DNA from: Myxococcota bacterium
GTDB lineage: Bacteria; Myxococcota_A; UBA796; UBA9615; JAKLKC01
Direction of reading: 5' to 3'
Length of the DNA stretch: 58,850 nucleotides
Assembly: GCA_023150875.1 (NCBI GenBank)
Contig: JAKLKC010000012.1
Coordinates: 69,565 to 128,414 of the forward strand
Both the position numbers and the translations under genes were made by a program. How positions within the stretch are numbered: the stretch's first letter is position 1; each line of letters begins with the position of its first letter. Shown piece after piece: positions 467 through 11,953 of the stretch. The notes under the pieces are model-generated. The model saw only the letters and a list, made by a program, of their open reading frames with translations. It ran no database searches and was not told where the DNA came from.

Positions 467-3400
467 ATGTCGGAAATCGTCGAGATCGAGCCCGGCACCG
501 TCCTCGGGGACCGGTTCCGGGTGGTGCACCCCCTGGGGCGAGGCGCCTTCGGCGCGGTGTACACCTGCGACGATCTGCTCCGGGGGGACCGGGCCGCCGT
601 CAAGCTGCTCCACCGGCCGGCGGGGAGGCCGCTGGGCCGCTTCTACTTGGAGTACCGGGCCCTCAGGCGGCTGAACCACCCGAACATCGTCTCCGCCCGC
701 ACCTTCTCCCGCCACGGGGGGCATCCCTTCATCGCCATGGACCTGGTGGACGGGGTGCCCCTGACCCGGGCCCTCGGTCCCCTGCCGGCGAGCCCCGAGG
801 TCGCGGTCGCCGTGCTGCGCCAGGCCCTCGACGCCCTCGCCACGGTGCACGAGCGTGGCCTGGTCCACCGGGACCTGAAGCCCGCCAACGCGCTCCTCAC
901 CCGGGGAAGGCACCTGTGGCTGCTGGACTTCGGCGCCGTGCTGCTGGACGAACCCGACGAGATCGGCCTGGTCACCGAGGGCGGCGCGGTGGGGACCGTC
1001 GCCTACATGGCTCCCGAGATCCTGAAGGGGAAGGGGTTCGACGCCCGGGTGGACCTCTACTCCCTGGGGGTGATCGCCCACGAGTTGCTGGCGGGGCGGA
1101 TGCCCTACCGGATCACCGGCTCCACGGCGGTGGCCATCGCCCAGGTCCTGCGGAGCCCCCCGGCGCGTCTCTCCGCCGCCCGCCCGGACCTGCCCCCCGC
1201 CCTGACGGGGATCGTCGACCGGCTGATGGAGCGGGACCCCGAGGCCCGGTTCCCCGACGCGGTGTCGGTGATCGCGGCGCTCCACGGGGCGGGCCTGGTG
1301 CCGGACGGGCCTCGGGTGAGGCCGGCCCGGGGCGACGACGGCGCGAGCGGCGAGGACCTGCCGCTCCTGGGCAGGGCGGAGGCGCTGGCGGCGGTGGCCC
1401 GGGCCGCCGGCCGGGCTGCCCGCCGGCGGGGGGAGGTGGTGCGGATCGGCGGCGAGCCCGGATGCGGGATCTCGCGCTTCCTGCGGGAGGCGCGGGCCCG
1501 CCTCGACGGCCTGGGCTGGTGGGTCGTCCCCGGCCAGCCCGGGGACCAGATCCTCCCGGGAGGGCCGGGGTGGAACGCCACCACCCTGGCCCTCCTGGAG
1601 GTCCTCGGCCAGCCCGCCGAGCGGTTCGGCCCGCTGGTAGCCGCGCTCGCCGGATCCGGCGCGGGCGGCGCGGCGCCGGGGCTCCCGCCGGAGGAGGGGC
1701 GCCCCCGGTTGGAGCAGGGGCTCCACGGATGGTGTCGCCTGCTGGCGGCGACCGCGGCGCGGCGCCCGGTGGCGGTGCTCGTCGAGGACGTCACCCGCCT
1801 GTCCCGGATGGGGCGGGCCCTGGCCGACGCGCTCGTGGACGCGGTCCCCGAGATGGGCGCGCCGGTCCTCGCGGTGGTCGGCGGTTCGCGGGACCCCGAC
1901 GTCGAGCTGGGGCGCCTCTCGCCCGCGGACCTGGAGGCCCTGTTCCCCGAGAGGGGGGAGCTCGGGGTGGACGACGTCCGGGCCGCCCGGGTGCTCTACG
2001 AGAGCAGCCGCGGCACGCCGGCCCTCGTCACCGCGACCCTCGCCCGGTGGGCGCGGGACGACCTTATCCATGCCGTCCCCGGTGGCTTCACAGTCACCCG
2101 CAAGGGGCGGGAGACGTTCGCGCGGCCGGAGGGAGAGGGGGTCATCCTGCCCGGGCGGGGCGAGGACCGCTACCGCGCCCTGCTGGACGGTGTGGGCCTG
2201 CGCGCCCAGCGGCTCCTGGCGGTGGCCTGCGCCCTGGAGCCCCCCATCACGCTGGGGCTCCTCGCCCGCGCCGCGGGGTGGGACGAGTGGGAGCTGCTGG
2301 CGCCCCTGGAGGAGCTCGTGGACGCGGGGCTGCTGCACGAGGAGGCCGGCGACCAGCGCTTGCGCCCCCTCCATCCCGCCCTGGGGGCGGCGGTGGGGGA
2401 GCTGCTGACGGAGGCGGAGATCCGGGCGGTGCACGCTCGGGTCGCCGACGCCCTGAGGGGGGACGGGGCCCCCGACGGCCTCGTCGCCAGCCACCTGCTG
2501 CGGGCGGGATGCCCCGCCGAGGCCGCCGAGGCCTGGTATCGCGCCTCGGAGGCGGCCTTCCTGGCCCACGACGTCGCCGGCGCCTTCGAGGGATCCTCCC
2601 GCGCCGCCGTGCACGGTGCCGATCCCTCGCTGAAGTGGCGGGCCCAGGTTCTGCTCTGCCGCTCCGCGCGCCTGCTGGGGGAACTCGAGGCCGCGGCACG
2701 GGCTTCGGCCGACCTCCTCCAGCCGCCCCCGGGGATCCCCGACGCCGACCGGGTCCACGCGGCCCTCCTCGCCGCTTCGTGGGCCACCGAGACCGGGGAC
2801 GCCGAGGTCGCCGACTCCGCCCTGGAGGCCGCGGCCCGGGTGGCGGCCCCGGATCCCTCGCTGCGGGCCGAGGTCCACCTCCGGGCGGCCCAGGCCCTCC
2901 AGCGGCGCAACCGGATCGACGAGGCGGACCGGGAGGCGCAGGCGGCCCTCCTCCGCTACCGGGAGGCGGGGTGTCCCCGGGGGATCGCCCGGGCCCTCCA
3001 CACCCTCGCCGCCGTGGTCTCCGCCCGGGGGGACGCCCACCGCGCCGCCGTCATCGCCCGGGAGGCCATCGACGCCCGGCGGGACGGCGAGGACCGCCTC
3101 CTGGGCGCCAACGCACGCCAGATCATCGCCATCAGCCACATCCAGCTCGGGGAATGGGACGAGGCGGAGCAGGTCCTGGAGGAGGCGCGGGAGCGGTTCG
3201 CCGAGTCCGGGGACCTGCGGAACCTCGCCCTGATCCGGGCCATGGCGCTGGAGGTGCAGGTCCGGCGCGAGCGCGAGCCACCCCAGGACCTGGTGCGGGA
3301 GGTGCTCCGCTACGCCACCCGGTTGAAGGTGCCGGTGGTGGAGGCGTACGTCCACGGGATCCTCGCCGGGGCGGGAGGGCTGGACGGGAGCCCATCGTCG

Positions 3401-3838
3401 GCGGTGCGCTCGGGCCGGCGGGCCAGCGAGCTCTACCTGAAGCGGGGCAACCGCGCCCTGGCGGCCTTGGCGGAGGCCAAGATCGCCCTGGCCGAGCGGG
3501 CGAGGGACCGGATGGCCGCGGCGGACGAGGCGTCGGCTCGGGCGGTGGATCTGGCGGGGGAGGACATCCCCGAGGACCTTCGGTGGCAGGTGCTGGTGGT
3601 GCGCGCCTGGAGCGCCCGGGACGCCACGGAACGCGCCGTCGCCAGCGCCATGGCCCGGGACGCCGCCCGCCGGGTGCTGGATGCCTGGACGGGAGGCGAT
3701 GCGGGGCGCCGGGATCGCCTGCTTCACGTCCGCCAGGACCTCGCCTGCACCTTCGCCGACGCGCTGGATCTGCTGGTGGACGAGGACGAGCTGCCCACCG
3801 TGGACGCCCCCCTGCCCACCGGCGGCGGTGATCCCTAG
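467..3838 (+). CDS. Soluble Ser/Thr protein kinase fused to an ATPase domain and TPR-like repeats
   Basis: The 1123-aa protein has an N-terminal Hanks-type kinase domain (about residues 15-265) with a complete catalytic set: Gly-rich loop GRGAFGAV at 24-31, Lys46, HRDLKPAN at 134-141, DFG at 154-156 and APE at 182-184. An AAA_16-like ATPase module follows (about 288-600). Its P-loop reads GEPGCGIS (319-326), so Ile replaces the usual Lys, and nucleotide binding there is doubtful. The C-terminal 500 residues are Ala/Glu/Arg-rich helical repeats of TPR type. No transmembrane segment is visible, unlike PknB receptors. Kinase-ATPase-TPR fusions are well known in myxobacteria as signalling regulators, but this protein's substrate is not indicated by its neighbours. 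Confidence 0.9.
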   Translation: MSEIVEIEPGTVLGDRFRVVHPLGRGAFGAVYTCDDLLRGDRAAVKLLHRPAGRPLGRFYLEYRALRRLNHPNIVSARTFSRHGGHPFIAMDLVDGVPLTRALGPLPASPEVAVAVLRQALDALATVHERGLVHRDLKPANALLTRGRHLWLLDFGAVLLDEPDEIGLVTEGGAVGTVAYMAPEILKGKGFDARVDLYSLGVIAHELLAGRMPYRITGSTAVAIAQVLRSPPARLSAARPDLPPALTGIVDRLMERDPEARFPDAVSVIAALHGAGLVPDGPRVRPARGDDGASGEDLPLLGRAEALAAVARAAGRAARRRGEVVRIGGEPGCGISRFLREARARLDGLGWWVVPGQPGDQILPGGPGWNATTLALLEVLGQPAERFGPLVAALAGSGAGGAAPGLPPEEGRPRLEQGLHGWCRLLAATAARRPVAVLVEDVTRLSRMGRALADALVDAVPEMGAPVLAVVGGSRDPDVELGRLSPADLEALFPERGELGVDDVRAARVLYESSRGTPALVTATLARWARDDLIHAVPGGFTVTRKGRETFARPEGEGVILPGRGEDRYRALLDGVGLRAQRLLAVACALEPPITLGLLARAAGWDEWELLAPLEELVDAGLLHEEAGDQRLRPLHPALGAAVGELLTEAEIRAVHARVADALRGDGAPDGLVASHLLRAGCPAEAAEAWYRASEAAFLAHDVAGAFEGSSRAAVHGADPSLKWRAQVLLCRSARLLGELEAAARASADLLQPPPGIPDADRVHAALLAASWATETGDAEVADSALEAAARVAAPDPSLRAEVHLRAAQALQRRNRIDEADREAQAALLRYREAGCPRGIARALHTLAAVVSARGDAHRAAVIAREAIDARRDGEDRLLGANARQIIAISHIQLGEWDEAEQVLEEARERFAESGDLRNLALIRAMALEVQVRREREPPQDLVREVLRYATRLKVPVVEAYVHGILAGAGGLDGSPSSAVRSGRRASELYLKRGNRALAALAEAKIALAERARDRMAAADEASARAVDLAGEDIPEDLRWQVLVVRAWSARDATERAVASAMARDAARRVLDAWTGGDAGRRDRLLHVRQDLACTFADALDLLVDEDELPTVDAPLPTGGGDP

Positions 3839-3860: not shown

Positions 3861-4334
3861 TCAGTCCTTCCGGCGGAAGAGCCGGAGCAGCCCTCCGGTG
3901 AGGCCGGAGGACGACGGGGCGCCGGCCTGCCCCCCTGCTCCCGCGGGGTCGGACGGGGAGCCGGGCGCCGGGAGCGGCCCGGGGGCGCCGGGAGCCGGCC
4001 CCTCCGGCTCCGCCCCAGGCGACGCCGGCGGGGCGGAGACCGCCTCGAAGCGAGGATCGGAGTCGCCCTCCCCCTCCTCGCGGCGCCATCCCGAGAAGCG
4101 GCTCCGGGCGGCCGGGCCCGCCCGCAGGGCGGGGCGGTCGGCCTGGACCAGGCGGATCACCCGGGCGAATTCCGGGCGCGCGTGCAGCGGGCGCCACTCG
4201 CCCTCGGGCTCGCGGAACTGGAGGGTGGGCGGCAGCCTTCCCTCGTAGAGCTGCTGACGGACCGTCACCGGGTCCGCCCAACCCAGGGGGAGGCCCGTGG
4301 GTTCCCGAAGTTCGACGTCGAAGGGTCCGGGCAT
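3861..4334 (-). CDS. Hypothetical 157-aa protein, GYF-like N-terminal fold possible
   Basis: The ATG at 4334-4332 is preceded by AGGAGG five bases upstream, which makes this start firm; longer in-frame extensions lack such a site. Residues 1-70 (MPGPFDVELREPTG...) contain a pattern of hydrophobic residues and Trp (GEWRPLHARPEFARV) that loosely resembles GYF_2-type domains of myxobacterial proteins. Residues 85-145 are a Pro/Gly/Ala-rich disordered linker, and the protein ends in a basic LFRRKD tail. It converges with the kinase gene and is divergent from selB. Function unknown. Confidence 0.7.
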   Translation of the reverse strand: MPGPFDVELREPTGLPLGWADPVTVRQQLYEGRLPPTLQFREPEGEWRPLHARPEFARVIRLVQADRPALRAGPAARSRFSGWRREEGEGDSDPRFEAVSAPPASPGAEPEGPAPGAPGPLPAPGSPSDPAGAGGQAGAPSSSGLTGGLLRLFRRKD

Positions 4335-4379
4335 CAACCCTCCTGGGCCCTCCCGTCGCGGGGGGGCGCCGGAGATCCC

Positions 4380-4385
4380 TATACT
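4380..4385 (+). promoter_or_regulatory. Candidate -10 element of selB
   Basis: TATACT matches the bacterial -10 consensus at five of six positions and lies 34 bases before the selB ATG in an otherwise GC-rich spacer. No clear -35 box is present 16-18 bases upstream. The reverse strand of the same site reads AGTATA, so it could also serve the divergent gene at 3861-4334. Confidence 0.4.
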
Positions 4386-4419
4386 CCCCCCCACACCCGG
4401 CCGGCGCAACCGGAGTTCC

Positions 4420-6351
4420 ATGGCCTCCTTCGTCATCGGCACCGCCGGACACATCGACCACGGCAAGACCCGCCTCGTGCGCGCCCTGACCGGCGTGGAC
4501 ACCGACCGCCTCGCCGAGGAGCAGCGCCGGGGGATCACCATCGAGCTGGGTTTCGCCCCGATCCGCCTGCCCTCGGGAGCCCGGGGGGGCGTCGTGGACG
4601 TGCCCGGCCACGAGCGCCTGGTGCGGACGATGGTCGCCGGCGCCACCGGCATCGACCTCGCCCTCCTCGTCGTCGCCGCCGACGAGGGCGTGATGCCCCA
4701 GACCCGGGAGCACCTGGACATCCTGAGGCTCCTCGAGGTCTCGCGGATGGTCGTCGCCCTCAGCAAGACCGACGTGGTCGACGCCGACCTGGCGGAGCTC
4801 GCCGCCGAGGAGGTGTCGTCCCACCTCCAGGGCACCCCCTTCGCGGGGAGCCCCGTGGTGCCCGTCTCCAGCGCCACCGGGGACGGGATCGAAGCCCTGC
4901 GGGCGCTGCTGGACGCGGTGGTCACCCGCTTGCCCCGGCGCCCCCACGAGGGCCCCTTCCGGGTGCCGGTGGACCGGGCCTTCAGCATGAGGGGATTCGG
5001 CACGGTGGTCACCGGCACCTGCGTCTCCGGGCGGGTCTCGGTCGCCGACGAGGTGGAGGTCCTGCCCGCCCGGGTGCGGACCCGGGTGCGGGGCGTCCAG
5101 GTCCACGGACAGACGGTCCCCGAGGCCGGCCCCTCCCACCGCGTCGCCCTGAACCTGCAAGGCATCTCCACCGAGGACATCCCCCGGGGCTCCGTGGTCT
5201 GCGCTCCGGACTCGGTCCCGGTGACGTCGATGGCGGACGTGCGGCTCCACTACCTCGCCAGCGCGGGGGAACCGCTGCCCACCCGCACCCGGGTCCGCTT
5301 CCTGACCGGAACCGCCGAGGCGCTGGGGGTGGTGCAGGTGGTGGGGCGCGGGGACGAGGCCGATCTCCGCGAAGTGGAGCCGGGGTGGACGGGCTGGGCC
5401 CAGGTCCGCCTGGACGCGCCCCTGGCGCTGAGCCGGGGGGATCGCTTCGTGCTCCGCCGGACCTCCCCCATGGTCACCCTCGGAGGAGGGGTGGTGCTGG
5501 ATCCCCAGCCGCAACGCCACCGCCCCCGGGAGTCCCGGGGCCGCCGGGCCCTCCTCGGGGCCCTGGACGGCCAGCCCTCCCCCGCGACGGCGCTGGACGC
5601 CGTGCTGGAGGCCGGGATCCCCCGCCCCTTCGAGGCCCGGGAGCTGGCGCTGCGCCTGGGCCTCCCCCGGGAGGCGGTGAAGGAGGGTCTCGTGACCCTC
5701 GCCGGGCAGGGCAGGGCCCTGGTCCTGGAGGGGGGGCGCCACGTCCACGCCGGTGTCGTCGCGCGCCTCCGCCCCGCGGTGCTCCAGGAGCTGGCGGCCT
5801 TCCACGCCGCCGAGCCCCTGCTGCCGGGCATGCCCCGCAACCACCTCCGCACCCGCCTGCCCGGCCACCTGGAAGCCCGCCTCTTCGCCGCCGTCCTCGA
5901 CGCCCTCGTCGCCGACGGGAGCGCCCAGGCCGACGAGCAGTCCGTCCGCCTCCCCGGCCACGTGCCCCGGACCAGCGAAGAGCAGGCCGCGGCGATCCTC
6001 CAGCTCGACCGCGTGTACCGGGAGGCGGGCTGGGAGCCCCCGGACCTGGCGGAGGCGGCGGAGGCGCTGGGAGGGCGGAGCGACGTGCCCGCCCTGGTGG
6101 CGCACCTCCAGCGTGCGGGCAGGATCGTGAGGGTGCGGGAGGACGTGCTCCTGCACTGCGAGGCGTGGGAGCGACTGGTCGAGACGGTGCGGGCCCGCCT
6201 GGAGGGGGGTGGCGAGATGGACCCCGTCGCGTTCAAGGACCTCACGGGCCTGTCGCGCCGGCTGGCGATCCCGATGCTCGAGCACCTCGACCGCCAGAAG
6301 GTGACCGTGCGCGTAGGGAACGTGCGCCGCTGGCGGGGAGAGCACTCCTGA
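4420..6351 (+). CDS. selB: Selenocysteine-specific translation elongation factor SelB
   Basis: This 643-aa GTPase delivers selenocysteinyl-tRNA to the ribosome at UGA codons followed by a SECIS element. The G-domain is complete: GTAGHIDHGKT at 7-17, the switch region RGITIELGF, DVPGH at 60-64 and SKTD at 115-118 (a Ser variant of NKxD). Beta-barrel domains and C-terminal winged-helix repeats of the mRNA-binding type follow. The length is close to the E. coli protein (614 aa). The start at 4420 is chosen because SelB proteins begin directly with this strand; upstream in-frame codons would add unrelated sequence. No selA, selD or tRNA-Sec lies nearby, but the genome is predicted to make selenoproteins. 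Confidence 0.95.
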   Translation: MASFVIGTAGHIDHGKTRLVRALTGVDTDRLAEEQRRGITIELGFAPIRLPSGARGGVVDVPGHERLVRTMVAGATGIDLALLVVAADEGVMPQTREHLDILRLLEVSRMVVALSKTDVVDADLAELAAEEVSSHLQGTPFAGSPVVPVSSATGDGIEALRALLDAVVTRLPRRPHEGPFRVPVDRAFSMRGFGTVVTGTCVSGRVSVADEVEVLPARVRTRVRGVQVHGQTVPEAGPSHRVALNLQGISTEDIPRGSVVCAPDSVPVTSMADVRLHYLASAGEPLPTRTRVRFLTGTAEALGVVQVVGRGDEADLREVEPGWTGWAQVRLDAPLALSRGDRFVLRRTSPMVTLGGGVVLDPQPQRHRPRESRGRRALLGALDGQPSPATALDAVLEAGIPRPFEARELALRLGLPREAVKEGLVTLAGQGRALVLEGGRHVHAGVVARLRPAVLQELAAFHAAEPLLPGMPRNHLRTRLPGHLEARLFAAVLDALVADGSAQADEQSVRLPGHVPRTSEEQAAAILQLDRVYREAGWEPPDLAEAAEALGGRSDVPALVAHLQRAGRIVRVREDVLLHCEAWERLVETVRARLEGGGEMDPVAFKDLTGLSRRLAIPMLEHLDRQKVTVRVGNVRRWRGEHS

Positions 6352-6456: not shown

Positions 6457-6580
6457 TTCTCCAGTCTTTACATGCGCTTGCTGGAGCCGACCCGGGATGC
6501 CGGACTGGGGGCGCCCGAGGGTGGTCGAAGCGGGTCGTCCGCCGATCCCCCATGGTACCGTCCCGGAGGTGACCTGACCG

Positions 6581-7729
6581 ATGATCCGTCCTTCCCCCGC
6601 AGTCGCCGCCGTCCTGCTGCTCGCCTTCACGCTGTTCCAGCTCGTACCCTTCGCGGTACCGTCCGCCCGGGCCGCGGAGGGGGGCGAGGGCATCCTCTCG
6701 GTCACCGCCAACGTCGAGGGGGCGAAGGTGAGCGTCGACGGCGAGCCGGCGGGCGTCACCCCCCTGACCGCCCTGTTCCCCCCGGGGCTCCACCGCGTCC
6801 GCGTCGAGGCCCCGGGCCACGACGCCGCCTCGCGGGAGGTTCGGGTGGAGCCGGGCAAGAAGGTGGTGTTCGAGGCCACCCTGGTCCGCGTCGCCAGCGT
6901 GCTGGACGTGCGGGTGAACGTCGAGGGGGCCGCGGCCTTCCTGGACGATCGCCCCATCGGTACCGGAGGGCGGATCGTGGTCGATCCCATCGACCCCGGC
7001 ACCTACGTGCTGCGGGTCGAGAAGCCCGGTTTCGAGACCTGGCAGGGGAAGGTGACGGTCTTCCGCAGCCAGGTCGTGGCCCTCCCCGTGGAGCTGGCGA
7101 GCGCATTCGGGACCCTCACCGTCCAGAGCGTGCCTCCGGGGGCGAAGGTGTGGGTGGACGGCCAGCCGCGGGGTGCCACCCCCCTGGCACTGGATGGGCT
7201 CTCCCACGGGCTCCACGGCGTCCGACTGGCGCATCCGGGCCACGCCGACGTCTTCCAGTCGGTCCGCGTCGACCGCCGGCACCGCGCCACCCTGGAAGTG
7301 GCGATGCCCACCGCCGCGGGGCGGCTGGTGGTGAGGGCCTCGCCGGGCAAGCCCCGCCTCTCCATCGACGGGTACGAGCTCGGAGAGCACGGCGAGCTGA
7401 CCCTGGACAACGTCTCCGCGGGGATCCACCAGGTCCGGGCCTCCCTGCCCGGCCACGCCGACGCGATGTCGCCGGTCCAGGTGCTCGAGGGTCAGGAGGC
7501 CGTGCTGGGGCTCCGCCTGGTGCCGGCGGGCACGGGGAGCGACCTCGCGGGGGCCGCCGTGGTGCGTCCCCCCGCGCGCCGCGCCCTGCCGTGGGTGATC
7601 CTCGGGGTGGCGGTGGCCGCGGGCGCGGGGATCGGCATCGGCCTGGCGGCGGAGGCCCGCGCCGCCGCCGTCCCCGGCGAGACCCCGGTGACGCCCCCGG
7701 CCGCGACGGTGGGAGTGGCCCTGCCGTGA
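6581..7729 (+). CDS. Secreted PEGA-repeat protein with a C-terminal membrane segment
   Basis: The 382-aa product has an N-terminal signal peptide (hydrophobic 8-28, ending SARAA) followed by four PEGA domains at about 37-104, 107-172, 176-242 and 247-313. They show the family hallmarks VxVDGxPxGxTPL and GxHxVRVExPGH. A Gly/Ala-rich hydrophobic helix at 336-356 near the C-terminus could anchor it in a membrane. PEGA domains are beta-sandwich surface domains common in deltaproteobacteria, with no enzymatic role. A strong ribosome site (GGAGGTGA at 6566) precedes the ATG. The downstream repeat lipoprotein follows after 29 bases, so the two are probably co-transcribed as envelope structural proteins. 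Confidence 0.85.
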   Translation: MIRPSPAVAAVLLLAFTLFQLVPFAVPSARAAEGGEGILSVTANVEGAKVSVDGEPAGVTPLTALFPPGLHRVRVEAPGHDAASREVRVEPGKKVVFEATLVRVASVLDVRVNVEGAAAFLDDRPIGTGGRIVVDPIDPGTYVLRVEKPGFETWQGKVTVFRSQVVALPVELASAFGTLTVQSVPPGAKVWVDGQPRGATPLALDGLSHGLHGVRLAHPGHADVFQSVRVDRRHRATLEVAMPTAAGRLVVRASPGKPRLSIDGYELGEHGELTLDNVSAGIHQVRASLPGHADAMSPVQVLEGQEAVLGLRLVPAGTGSDLAGAAVVRPPARRALPWVILGVAVAAGAGIGIGLAAEARAAAVPGETPVTPPAATVGVALP

Positions 7730-7758
7730 CGCCCGTCCCTTCCTCCCTCCCCCCCGGG

Positions 7759-10700
7759 ATGCCGAACATGATCCTGACCCGCCGACTCGCCGCCGCCCTC
7801 GGGGTCGCCGCCCTCGGGGCGGGGTGTCCGGCGCCCGAGCCGGTGGACACCACCACGGGGTACCTGCTCGTCAGCCTCGTCGAGCCCGACGTGGACCTGT
7901 CGGTGGTGCGCTCCCTCCAGCTCGTGTTCGAGTCGGCGGAGACGGGGAGGCCGTTCACCGACGCCTCGGGGAACGCCTTCGCGGACGGCGTGCAGCTCGA
8001 GGGGGGAGGGGTGTTCGCCGAGCGAAACCCCAACGCCCCCGGGCCCGAGCTGGTGGTGACCATCTCGTTGTCGACGTGGACCGACGAGGCCTCGCTGCCG
8101 ACCGTCAGCCTCGCCTTCGGCGAGCGAAACGTGGGCCTGCCCGTCGCGGTCACCGTCAGCGGACTCGACTCCGCCAGCGTGGAGCGGGCGTCGGCGCCCA
8201 AGAGCGCCCCGGCGGTCGTGCGCATGAACGAGGTCGTCGACGTGACGATCCCGGGCTTCGAGATGGAGGAGGTCATCGATCCCCCCGATCCCGACTGCTC
8301 CGACGGCCAGGACAACGACGCCGACGGGTGGATCGACGCCGCCGAGGATCCCGGGTGTGGCGGGGATCCCCAGGCCGACGGCGAGGGGGGCTTCGACTTC
8401 TCCTTCGAGTGCAACGACGGCCTCGACAACGACGCCGACGGCCTGGTGGACCGGGAGGATCCGGAGTGCACCTCGGCGACCGTCGACGACGAGGGCGAGG
8501 AGATCGTGGACCCCCCCGGGGACTGCGACGACGGCCTCGACAACGATGGCGACGGTTGGCTCGACTGGGCGGAGGACTCGAGCTGCGCTTCGGATCCCGA
8601 CGGCCACGAGGAGGGTCTCACCGCGTCGGTGTGCAACGACGGCATCGACAACGACGGGGACGGCGCCGTGGACGCCGACGATCCCGACTGCGTCGACGGC
8701 TACGACGGCAGCGAGGCCACCTACGTGTCCGCGTGCAGCGACGGCCTGGACAACGACTTCGACGGGTGGATCGATCTCGACGATCCCGGCTGTGACCTCG
8801 ATCCCGACGGCGGCTCCGAGGGGGGGCTCGGATCGGCCGCGTGCAACGACGGCTTCGACAACGACGGAGACGGGGACGCCGACGCGGCGGATCCCCACTG
8901 TGGCGACGGCTTCGACGAGAACGAGGAGACCCCCGACTGCCAGGACGGGGTGGACAACGACGGCGACGGGTGGGTCGACGTCGCGGACCCCGGCTGCGCC
9001 GATACCCTCGACGAGGACGAGTCCGGCGGCGGTGGCGCGGCGTGCGGCAACGGGCTGGACGACGACGGCGACGGCCTGGTGGACGGGCACGATCCCCACT
9101 GCGGCGACGCGCTGGAGGACGACGAGCGCGCCGCCTGCGTGAACGGGATCGACGACGACCTGGACGGCTGGACCGACGGGGAGGACCCCGGCTGCAGCCC
9201 GGCGGACACCCCGGCGGGATACATCCCCCCCGACGGGGATCCCCTCGCCTACGACGATGCCGAGGGCAGGGCCTGCTCCGATGGGGCGGACAACGACGGG
9301 GACGGCCTCGTGGACCTGGACGATCCCGAGTGCGCGTCGGCGGCGGACTCCGACGAGGCCGAAGCGGGCGAGCAGGCCCCTCCCGAGTGCGCCAACGGGC
9401 TGGACGACGACGGGGACGGGGCGATGGACGCGGACGATCCCGACTGCCTGGACGGCCTGGACGACAGGGAGGCGACGCCGGAGTGCGCCAACGGGCTGGA
9501 CGACGACGGGGACGGGTGGGTCGACCTCGCCGATCCCGGGTGCGAGGACGCGCTCGACGAGGACGAGACCGACGCCGCCGGCGAGAGCGAGTGCCACGAC
9601 GGCCTCGACAACGACGGGGACGGCGCCATCGACGGCTCCGATCCCCTGTGTGCCTCGCCAGAGGACGACTCCGAGGCGTCGCTGTGCTCCAACGGCCGGG
9701 ACGACGACGGGGACGGGTGGACGGACCTGGCCGATCCCGGCTGCGGCGATCCCGAGGGCGACGACGAGGCCGACGCCGGCTCAGCGGCCTGCAACAACGG
9801 GCTGGACGACGACGGCGACGGGAGCATCGACCACCTGGACTCCGGCTGCCGCGACGGGGGCGACGCGCGGGAGGAGACCCCGGAGTGCCAGGACGGCCTC
9901 GACAACGATGGGGACGGGTGGACCGACGTCGAGGATCCCGGCTGCCCGGCGAGCCCCTCCGATCCCGCCTGGGACTTCGAGACCGGCCTCCTCGGGACGC
10001 AGTGCGGCGACGGGGTCGACAACGACGGCGACGGTGCCGTCGACGGGTACGACCCCGACTGCACCGATCCCACCGACGACCTCGAGGCGTTGGTGGAGTG
10101 CGGCGACGGGGTCGACAACGACGGGGACGGCTGGATCGACGCCGACGAGGACCCCGGCTGCGCCGGCGACGCCAACGGGCTGACGGAAGCGGACGCCGGG
10201 CTGACCGAGTGCACCGACGGCGTGGACAACGACTCCGACTTCTACGTCGACGCGATCGACCCCGACTGCGTGTCCGGTTACGACGACAACGAGGGAGTCG
10301 CCGCATGCGGGAACGGGGTCGACGACGACGCGGACGGCTGGATCGACCTCGCCGACCCTGGCTGCGGCGGCGATCCCCAGGTGGAGAGCGAGGGGGGGCT
10401 GGGGGTCACCGCGTGCAACGACGGCGTGGACAACGACGTCGACGGTGCCGCGGACGCCGACGACCCGCGGTGCGCCGACGCCCTGGGGGCGAGCGAGGCC
10501 GGGGAGTTCTGCGCCGACGGCCTGGACAACGACGGGGACGGGTGGACCGACGGTGGCGACCCCGACTGCGTCGCCGGGCTCGGGCGCGAGCAGGGGTTCA
10601 TCGCGGGGATCGCCTGCAACGACGGGATCGACAACGACGGGGACGGTGCCGTGGACGCGGCCGATCCCGAGTGCGCGATCCCCGTGACGCCCGACGAGGC

Positions 10701-11505
10701 GACGGGGGGTACGGACGACTGCGCCGACGGGATCGACAACGACGGCGATCTCTGGACCGACCTGGGCGATCCCGACTGCCGGACCGCCCCGTTCGACGAG
10801 ACGGGCTTCGCCGGGGGAGAGTGCAACGACGCCGCCGACAACGACGGGGACGGGCTGATCGACGGCGTCGATCCCGACTGCACCAGCGCCGAGGTGCAGC
10901 AGGAGAGGCGCGCCACGTGCGCCAACAGCTCGGACGACGACGGGGACGGCTGGGTGGACCTCGACGACCCCGAGTGCATCGCGGGCATCGCCGAGCGTGG
11001 GCTGGACGTCACGGAGTGCGCCGACGGCGTGGACAACGACGGGGACGGGGCCGTGGACGCGGACGATCCGGAGTGCGACCACGGCGTTTCCCGGGAGGAC
11101 GATCCCGGGCCGGCCTCCTGTGCCGACGGCGAGGACGACGACGGGGATGGCTGGGTGGACCTGCAGGACCCGGAGTGCGCGGTCCTCTTCGAGGAGAGGG
11201 GGGGGAGCGGGGATTCGGAGTGCTCCGACGGCATCGACAACGACCTCGACGGCCTGGAGGACGGGTTCGACCCCGATTGCGCAGGAGCCTCCGACGACGC
11301 CGAGCAGGCCGCCTGCGGGGACGGGGTCGACAACGACGGCGACGGCTGGACCGACCTCGACGACCCTGGCTGCGGAGGGATCGAGGAAAGGGACAACGAG
11401 GGCGGGTTCGGCTACGGCACCTGCCTCGACGGCATCGACAACGATGGCGACGGATCCCGCGACGCCGACGATCCCGACTGCGGGGACGCCTTCGCCGAGG
11501 AGTAA
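7759..11505 (+). CDS. Surface protein with 31 Cys-bracketed calcium-loop repeats
   Basis: The 1248-aa product begins with a secretion signal ending in LGAGC (Cys23), a lipobox-like site. A beta-rich domain of about 150 residues follows, and then 31 tandem units fill the rest. Each unit starts with CxDGxDNDGDG and ends with DPxC, so it holds two cysteines and one loop spelling the EF-hand pattern DxDxDGxxDxxD. This resembles thrombospondin type 3 and MopE-type metal-binding repeats, so a rigid, calcium-loaded, disulfide-bonded rod on the cell surface is likely (inference). The ATG at 7768 would also work and costs three residues. Very high Asp and Cys content; no enzymatic domain. Probably in an operon with the PEGA protein. 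Confidence 0.85.
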   Translation: MPNMILTRRLAAALGVAALGAGCPAPEPVDTTTGYLLVSLVEPDVDLSVVRSLQLVFESAETGRPFTDASGNAFADGVQLEGGGVFAERNPNAPGPELVVTISLSTWTDEASLPTVSLAFGERNVGLPVAVTVSGLDSASVERASAPKSAPAVVRMNEVVDVTIPGFEMEEVIDPPDPDCSDGQDNDADGWIDAAEDPGCGGDPQADGEGGFDFSFECNDGLDNDADGLVDREDPECTSATVDDEGEEIVDPPGDCDDGLDNDGDGWLDWAEDSSCASDPDGHEEGLTASVCNDGIDNDGDGAVDADDPDCVDGYDGSEATYVSACSDGLDNDFDGWIDLDDPGCDLDPDGGSEGGLGSAACNDGFDNDGDGDADAADPHCGDGFDENEETPDCQDGVDNDGDGWVDVADPGCADTLDEDESGGGGAACGNGLDDDGDGLVDGHDPHCGDALEDDERAACVNGIDDDLDGWTDGEDPGCSPADTPAGYIPPDGDPLAYDDAEGRACSDGADNDGDGLVDLDDPECASAADSDEAEAGEQAPPECANGLDDDGDGAMDADDPDCLDGLDDREATPECANGLDDDGDGWVDLADPGCEDALDEDETDAAGESECHDGLDNDGDGAIDGSDPLCASPEDDSEASLCSNGRDDDGDGWTDLADPGCGDPEGDDEADAGSAACNNGLDDDGDGSIDHLDSGCRDGGDAREETPECQDGLDNDGDGWTDVEDPGCPASPSDPAWDFETGLLGTQCGDGVDNDGDGAVDGYDPDCTDPTDDLEALVECGDGVDNDGDGWIDADEDPGCAGDANGLTEADAGLTECTDGVDNDSDFYVDAIDPDCVSGYDDNEGVAACGNGVDDDADGWIDLADPGCGGDPQVESEGGLGVTACNDGVDNDVDGAADADDPRCADALGASEAGEFCADGLDNDGDGWTDGGDPDCVAGLGREQGFIAGIACNDGIDNDGDGAVDAADPECAIPVTPDEATGGTDDCADGIDNDGDLWTDLGDPDCRTAPFDETGFAGGECNDAADNDGDGLIDGVDPDCTSAEVQQERRATCANSSDDDGDGWVDLDDPECIAGIAERGLDVTECADGVDNDGDGAVDADDPECDHGVSREDDPGPASCADGEDDDGDGWVDLQDPECAVLFEERGGSGDSECSDGIDNDLDGLEDGFDPDCAGASDDAEQAACGDGVDNDGDGWTDLDDPGCGGIEERDNEGGFGYGTCLDGIDNDGDGSRDADDPDCGDAFAEE
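8296..11502 (+). repeat. Coding tandem repeat, 31 units with two-unit periodicity
   Basis: Units of about 31-46 codons each encode one Cys-to-Cys calcium-loop module. Units alternate between a type with Trp after the loop (DGW, followed by xDP) and a type with a small or aliphatic residue at that position (DGA, DGL, DGS). The alternation is unbroken in units 1-9 (Trp in odd units) and 12-31 (Trp in even units), with one slip at units 10-11. Linkers between modules vary in length and sequence. Confidence 0.9.
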
Positions 11506-11583
11506 GGCCCGGGAGGCTCCCGAGCCCCCGGCCCGGCCCTCGCCACCCTTGCCCCCGGTCCACCCGATCCCCAGCCTTTCCCC

Positions 11584-11799
11584 GTGACCCCCCGCTGTCC
11601 CATCTGCAAGGCCCCCCTCGCCCCCCGGGCGGAGAACCGCGCCTGGCCTTTCTGCTCGGCCAGGTGCCGCATGGTGGACCTCGGCCGCTGGTTGGGCGAG
11701 GACTACCGCTTCGCCGGCCCCGTGGAACCCGAAGCGGCCCACGACACGGCGCGCGGCTGGGCGCCCCAGCGCGTCGAACCTCCCGACGACGAGGCCTGA
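11584..11799 (+). CDS. yacG: DNA gyrase inhibitor YacG
   Basis: The short zinc protein (71 aa) carries the family's four cysteines in CPxC (residues 5-8) and CxxxC (about 24-28), followed by the signature DLGRWLGEDYRFAG. YacG binds a zinc ion and the C-terminal part of GyrB, inhibiting DNA gyrase. Translation starts at GTG 11584; no ATG exists in the right place. It lies 78 bases after the repeat protein and upstream of the recA control region. Length is typical of the family (about 65 aa in E. coli). Confidence 0.92.
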   Translation: MTPRCPICKAPLAPRAENRAWPFCSARCRMVDLGRWLGEDYRFAGPVEPEAAHDTARGWAPQRVEPPDDEA

Positions 11800-11874
11800 T
11801 CGCCGCGCCGGGGACGGGGCCGTACCTTGGAGCGGCCGAGCCTGCGCCCCCGGGGCTCCCCCCACCGAACACCT

Positions 11875-11919
11875 GTCCGATGGGCGTCCGATCTTCGGAC
11901 GATCGTCCGACATTCGGAC
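11875..11919. promoter_or_regulatory. Tandem palindromic operators upstream of recA (LexA-like candidate)
   Basis: Two perfect 15-base palindromes of the form GTCCGA-N3-TCGGAC lie at 11886-11900 and 11905-11919, with centres 19 bases apart. A further half-site GTCCGA sits at 11875-11880. They lie about 150 bases before the recA ATG. In most bacteria recA is controlled by LexA, and LexA operators differ strongly between deltaproteobacterial lineages, so these are good candidates for the local SOS box. The sequence differs from the LexA motifs I know for Geobacter, Myxococcus and Bdellovibrio. Confidence 0.65.
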
Positions 11920-11953
11920 GGCGGGTGGGGCCGCGCGCACGCCCCGCAGCGGA

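Follow-up and report, generated by a model that had tools for sequence, protein, structure and literature searches.

Alternating two-cysteine units related to the teneurin C-rich domain in a predicted lipoprotein of Myxococcota

Introduction

Thrombospondin type 3 repeats form arrays of two motif types (N and C), with disulfides along a calcium wire. The coordination of calcium I and II in these repeats is shared by the C-rich domain of human teneurin-4, which holds two calcium ions as in thrombospondin type 3 repeats and a third one as in LDL-A modules (PMC9058538). In the crystal structure of this domain (7plp), C838 and C857, which are 19 positions apart, are disulfide-bonded, C852 is bonded to C863, and calcium is liganded by D840, D843, N844, D845, D847, L849 (through the backbone O), D851, D854 and D856 (PMC9058538). 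The teneurin motif has already been likened to bacterial metal-binding motifs (Tucker, 2012, as cited in PMC6425310). Among bacterial repeats, the closest described family is NCBIfam NF033662 (acid_disulf_rpt), an acidic, Cys-bracketed DxDxDG unit with two disulfides (four Cys).

Here we describe an array of 31 related units encoded in a 58,850-nucleotide stretch (hereafter, the window) of the genome of a Myxococcota bacterium (contig JAKLKC010000012.1) and compare it with these systems. The unit itself is already known, and the architecture of two alternating types appears to be undescribed; no description of alternating single-disulfide arrays was found in the open-access literature by repeat name or motif string.

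Results

The repeat lipoprotein and its array

The gene for the repeat lipoprotein (Table 1) is enclosed in a longer open frame (6472-11505; stop codon at 11503-11505) and has an alternative in-frame ATG at 7759. Its product starts with a signal peptide and a lipobox Cys (LGAGC at aa 16-20, assigned by eye), and a lipobox is found in all orthologs read. The N-terminal domain is modeled by AlphaFold2 as a confident beta-sandwich (pLDDT 88, pTM 0.82), for which the best matches in a fold search against the PDB are pilin and adhesin beta-sandwiches, weak and not significant (E 4e-3). Long antisense frames over the array (e.g., 9781-11940, minus strand) were discounted as probable artefacts of high GC.

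Table 1. Positions in the window of the features of the repeat lipoprotein locus
Feature	Position	Strand	Basis or remark
PEGA-domain protein gene, likely same operon	6581..7729	+	PF08308, E 1.1e-52
Repeat lipoprotein gene	7768..11505	+	1245 aa; open frame, lipobox LGAGC, 31 units
Predicted lipoprotein signal peptide, MILTRRLAAALGVAALGAGC, lipobox Cys = C20	7768..7827	+	
Predicted N-terminal beta-sandwich domain, ~156 residues, common to orthologs	7828..8295	+	AlphaFold2
31 acidic two-Cys units with putative calcium loops, W-type/x-type alternating	8296..11502	+	
Units 10 and 11, sole phase slip (x then x)	9274..9483	+	
Sole tandem repeat detected in the array DNA (units 11/12; 96 bp, 1.8 copies, 81%)	9385..9560	+	Tandem Repeats Finder
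Terminator-like hairpin, 120 bp 3' of the lipoprotein stop	11625..11646	+	Weak: 2 found vs 0.8 expected

The initial annotation had delimited the array at 8296-11502 and assigned two Cys to each of 31 units. Unit parsing bears this out: unit 1 begins at the first of these positions and unit 31 finishes at the last, with exactly two Cys in 31/31 units (62 in total), which are 19 residues apart in 28 units and 20 apart in units 1, 3 and 18. The loop between the two Cys has the consensus DxDxDGxxDxxD. The same annotation attributed a DxDxDG motif to every unit; the D.D.D core is indeed present in all 31, but the full motif only in 29, its G being replaced by F in unit 19 and by L in unit 24. Asp makes up 26% of the array, which contains 354 D+E and 17 K+R in 1069 aa and, before metal, would carry a net charge of about -337.

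Position 7 of the loop (unit index 11) is Trp in units 1, 3, 5, 7, 9, 12, 14 and every second unit thereafter up to 30. These units are denoted W-type, and the remaining ones x-type. The alternation, which had been considered strict over units 1-9 and 12-31, extends over slightly longer stretches, namely units 1-10 and 11-31, so that the pair 10-11 is the single pair of same-type neighbors; of the 300,540,195 arrangements possible under random order, 31 (1.0e-7) have no more than one pair of this kind. The mean unit length is 36.4 aa for the W-type and 33.1 aa for the x-type, that is, about 70 aa or about 209 bp for a dimer. At the DNA level, however, Tandem Repeats Finder detects no 210-bp tandem repeat in the array, the only repeat reported being a 96-bp pair. 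A recent 210-bp tandem duplication is thereby ruled out, and any growth by dimers has to be old.

Relationship to acidic double-disulfide repeats, teneurins and other calcium-binding motifs

The NF033662 model matches 31 stretches of the lipoprotein (E 4.7e-178, 576.5 bits), the best of which covers model positions 6-27 of 32; the whole protein exceeds the curated cut-off of 41 bits, and single units fall below it (best 40.2). A Pfam search of the lipoprotein yields no family at E <= 10. The window units share with NF033662 the acidic, Cys-bracketed DxDxDG core but differ in that they keep only the first Cys pair, lacking both the position-14 Cys and its partner in the linker, and in that two types alternate. 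The unit is thus a predicted single-disulfide variant of NF033662, not a plain member of the family. The loss of both partners of the second disulfide with retention of the first pair supports the pairing of Cys0 with Cys19, and the position-14 equivalent in teneurin is C852.

Searched against PDB sequences, the array has a single match with E < 0.01, which is to 7plp, the C-rich domain of teneurin-4 (E 2e-4). With the NF033662 model, the C-rich fragment of teneurin-4 is recognized at E 1.6e-9, and teneurins are also retrieved when a 4-Cys bacterial paralog serves as the query. When the 7plp ligands are aligned with the unit, no gap is needed; they fall on positions 2, 5, 6, 7, 9, 11 (the backbone ligand), 13, 16 and 18, and the positions matched by D840, D843, N844, D845, D847, D851 and D854 are conserved. 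The array units thus have in common with the teneurin domain the Cys0-Cys19 spacing and nearly all side-chain calcium ligands. In teneurin, however, the domain is a single copy with three disulfides (six Cys) and three calcium ions; the bacterial lipoprotein has 31 copies, and each of them has one Cys pair.

The side chains at positions 2 and 6 are not independent. Two-Cys units combine D-N (226), N-D (65), D-D (16) and N-N (1) at these positions (Fisher p 4e-50), and 4-Cys paralogs show 90 D-N, 185 N-D, 12 D-D and 0 N-N (p 8e-62), although both p-values treat related units as independent and hence overstate the strength of the association. Such a joint swap of D and N is expected if both positions ligate calcium as in teneurin. 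With two thrombospondin-type-3-like sites and one additional site in the teneurin homolog, the probable number of calcium ions per unit is two rather than one. A third ion per unit is doubtful because W-type units often have Gly in place of D856 and because E835 lacks a clear counterpart in the units. The earlier description of one EF-hand-type loop per unit is therefore to be corrected with respect to the ligand set, which fits a two- or three-calcium site. The Trp site contributes only a backbone carbonyl in teneurin, which would leave the Trp side chain free for another role.

AlphaFold2, which does not place ions, was run on units 20-23 with an alignment that included another 122 four-unit segments. 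The resulting model (pLDDT 90, pTM 0.58) contains a single helix of 4 residues. Its best Foldseek match is teneurin-4 (21 columns, 0.4 A, 67% identity) with an E value of 2.0, which is not significant by itself, as expected for a 21-residue motif. In line with what had been anticipated of a structure prediction for consecutive units, the modeled calcium loop fits that of teneurin-4, in which the equivalent Cys pair forms a disulfide. With a pTM of only 0.58, the relative placement of the units, and hence a rod, is uncertain.

The 12-residue pattern D1-D3-D5-G6-x7-D9-D12 is shared in sequence with EF-hands and dockerins, but the window loop is closed by Cys and helices of EF-hand length do not flank it in the model; membership in the EF-hand family is ruled out by the absence of a helix-loop-helix. 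Membership in Pfam TSP_3 is likewise ruled out, with no match in the lipoprotein. In contrast to the two motif types of thrombospondin type 3 arrays, the two types in the window differ by the Trp and the linker, not by the presence of a Cys.

Two unit types beyond the Trp

The two types differ in more than the Trp. When the Trp column was removed, a tree of 30 window units separated 13 W-type and 1 x-type unit from 15 x-type and 1 W-type unit, with 3 label changes compared to a mean of 10.2 in shuffles (0/500 shuffles as low). A tree of 269 units from 8 proteins requires 7 label changes vs 90 in shuffles. The suggestion that odd and even units would form two clades therefore agrees with both trees. 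A Trp-blind classifier in a leave-one-protein-out setting recognizes the type with an AUC of 0.99-1.0, the L067 array being the exception (0.90).

W-type units are followed by a linker of about 15 residues with the pattern E..G.G.. (ExGFGxT-type) and x-type units by one of about 12 residues with the pattern D..E (DxxE-type); a C-N start is found in 70% of x-type vs 18% of W-type units. When units were typed by the linker and the residue after Cys0 alone, W was present in 342/359 W-type units (95%) and Y in 11. The equivalent site of x-type units holds L, D, A, F, Y, R, W, T, S, K, Q, V and others. Because W is kept in one type and the site varies freely in the other, the Trp appears to be under selection in W-type units only.

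Orthologous arrays and the adjacent PEGA gene

Long two-Cys arrays are present in 45/71 genomes of the class (E <= 1e-40) and, outside the class, in only 1 genome among 284 of the phylum (E <= 1e-50). The named genome records with long arrays are mostly uncultured Deltaproteobacteria or Myxococcota MAGs. The orthologous arrays consist of 18-49 units, many of exactly 38, start with a W-type unit and keep the phase, and the Cys count is even in 35/36 arrays. Since the alternation is kept across the whole class, the true building block, at the level of sequence, is the two-unit module. Strict alternation is not required in all lineages, as the L067/L116 lineage has long WW stretches and many WW pairs. 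The slip of the window array at units 9-11 is absent from its best-aligned relative, L063.

Comparison of orthologs unit by unit gives scores of about 90 at even offsets vs about 67 at odd ones. Several pairs of 38-unit arrays show an additional peak at offset 0 (98-111), which indicates positional orthology of the units. In unit-level alignments, length differences between orthologs are even (2, 4, 6, 8 or 12 units) in 106 cases and odd (1, 3 or 11) in 20; among the pairs listed, gaps of 3 or 11 units occur only where L093 is one of the partners. Given these mostly even differences, gain and loss of dimers is evidently the rule, but an old one. Free recent growth of arrays is ruled out by the many orthologs with exactly 38 units and their unit-by-unit orthology; growth is evidently old, and the length of the arrays is now fixed in many cases. 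Thus, the earlier proposal of growth by a dimer of about 70 residues and 210 bases is supported as regards the dimer, by the even length differences, but the missing 210-bp repeat points to an ancient process.

The PEGA-domain gene ends 30-38 bp upstream of the lipoprotein ATG. Its product contains 4 PEGA stretches and, according to hydropathy, an N-terminal hydrophobic segment and a C-terminal transmembrane-like segment. In BLAST searches, a PEGA homolog was found directly upstream of every tested array of at least 18 two-Cys units; around the short arrays that were checked, no such homolog was detected.

A 24-unit array (L174, from 757 onward, minus strand) with perfect W/x alternation, i.e., 12 dimers, occurs in G233, a genome that belongs to the phylum but is placed outside the class. 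This array follows a different N-terminus, of the DTPA-repeat lipoprotein type, and PEGA is not detectable, so that the W-x module is separable from the PEGA gene pair.

Predicted organization and alternative explanations

We consider it reasonably likely that the protein is a lipid-anchored, calcium-stiffened, disulfide-stapled acidic rod of W-x dimers, either exposed at the cell surface or periplasmic, a reading that draws on the sequences, the predicted models and the homology with teneurin. In this scheme, the gene product would be exported and lipidated, and the N-terminal beta-sandwich would be followed by a long acidic, calcium-binding chain. Each unit would adopt the single-disulfide form of the acidic double-disulfide/teneurin C-rich fold, with Cys0 bonded to Cys19 within the unit so that the loop is stapled, and Asp and Asn holding two calcium ions, possibly three. 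The dimer, with its approximately 70 residues, would be the working module, in which a W-type unit with its Trp and ExGFGxT-type linker precedes an x-type unit with Asn after Cys0 and a DxxE-type linker. The W side chain and the linker of its unit might pack on the next unit and fix the angle between the units. The calcium-loaded chain would then form a semi-rigid polyanionic rod that might work together with the PEGA-domain protein encoded just upstream.

We advance more tentatively a stronger version, in which the W-x dimer is a distinct single-disulfide calcium heterodimer where the Trp and the GFG linker replace the lost second disulfide, and the arrays, often of 38 units, serve across a class as rigid, calcium-dependent surface spacers of defined length partnered by the PEGA-domain membrane protein.

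The alternation could also be a mere relic of dimer duplication in an ancestor, with the two types persisting by heredity and having no structural role. The positional orthology of units between distant arrays, with offset-0 scores of 104-110 vs about 90, implies that each unit passes on its old differences; copying of dimers by itself produces indels of even size, and part of the alternation could indeed reflect heredity rather than selection. Heredity alone, however, would let the Trp site drift in both types, whereas it is held in the W-type and drifts over at least 12 residues in the x-type; this retention weakens the explanation, and the perfect 12-dimer alternation in G233, behind a different N-terminus and with no PEGA detectable, also counts against it. 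We therefore regard it as unlikely.

A role primarily as a calcium buffer or a mineral-nucleating polyanion, for which length and charge would matter but a defined shape would not, is compatible with the Asp content and net charge of the array and with the two or more calcium sites per unit predicted by homology. Such a role would not, however, call for exact alternation, conserved GFG linkers, conserved Cys pairs or a fixed length of 38 units in many arrays, and we find it rather improbable. The view that this is an ordinary acidic double-disulfide repeat protein in which the W/x pattern is incidental agrees with the NF033662 matches in all 31 units and with the abundance of related 4-Cys arrays in these genomes, but is very hard to reconcile with the second Cys pair missing from 31/31 units and with the composition of the six 4-Cys arrays examined, in which Cys occupies position 14 in 303/304 units and Trp at position 11 is absent.

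The relationship to teneurin connects an uncharacterized family of bacterial repeats with an animal calcium domain of solved structure, which allows a residue-by-residue assignment of the disulfide and the calcium ligands. The conserved two-part code of W-type and x-type units is amenable to testing with a single short construct. If the rod of W-x dimers, which we favor, is correct, it would represent a simple, calcium-switched spacer of fixed length across a class of uncultured bacteria.

Other genes and domains associated with the arrays

Genes around the arrays are often arranged as selB - PEGA - array - aspS. The window has selB upstream (4297-6351, plus strand) and recA downstream; a homolog of selB, which encodes the selenocysteine-specific elongation factor, is also present in 12 other loci. 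The gene for aspartyl-tRNA synthetase, aspS, follows the array in L081 (12203-14101), L063 (10976-12883) and L066 (3990-5915), and a homolog is found in about 9 loci; its position beside an array so rich in Asp is curious, although the synteny may be due to chance. The window also encodes a Ser/Thr protein kinase (467-3838, plus strand) that contains AAA and TPR-like regions.

There are 57 NF033662 matches over about 14 places in the window's own genome. In related genomes, very long 4-Cys NF033662 arrays, with up to 94 units parsed and no Trp alternation, are found in L073, L074, L075, L076, L078 and L080. Finally, the C-terminus of the array protein is a lamin tail domain (PF00932) in L081 and L065 (E 3e-16 and 4e-18), and the L067 array protein has a different C-terminal domain, which by eye is IPT/TIG-like.
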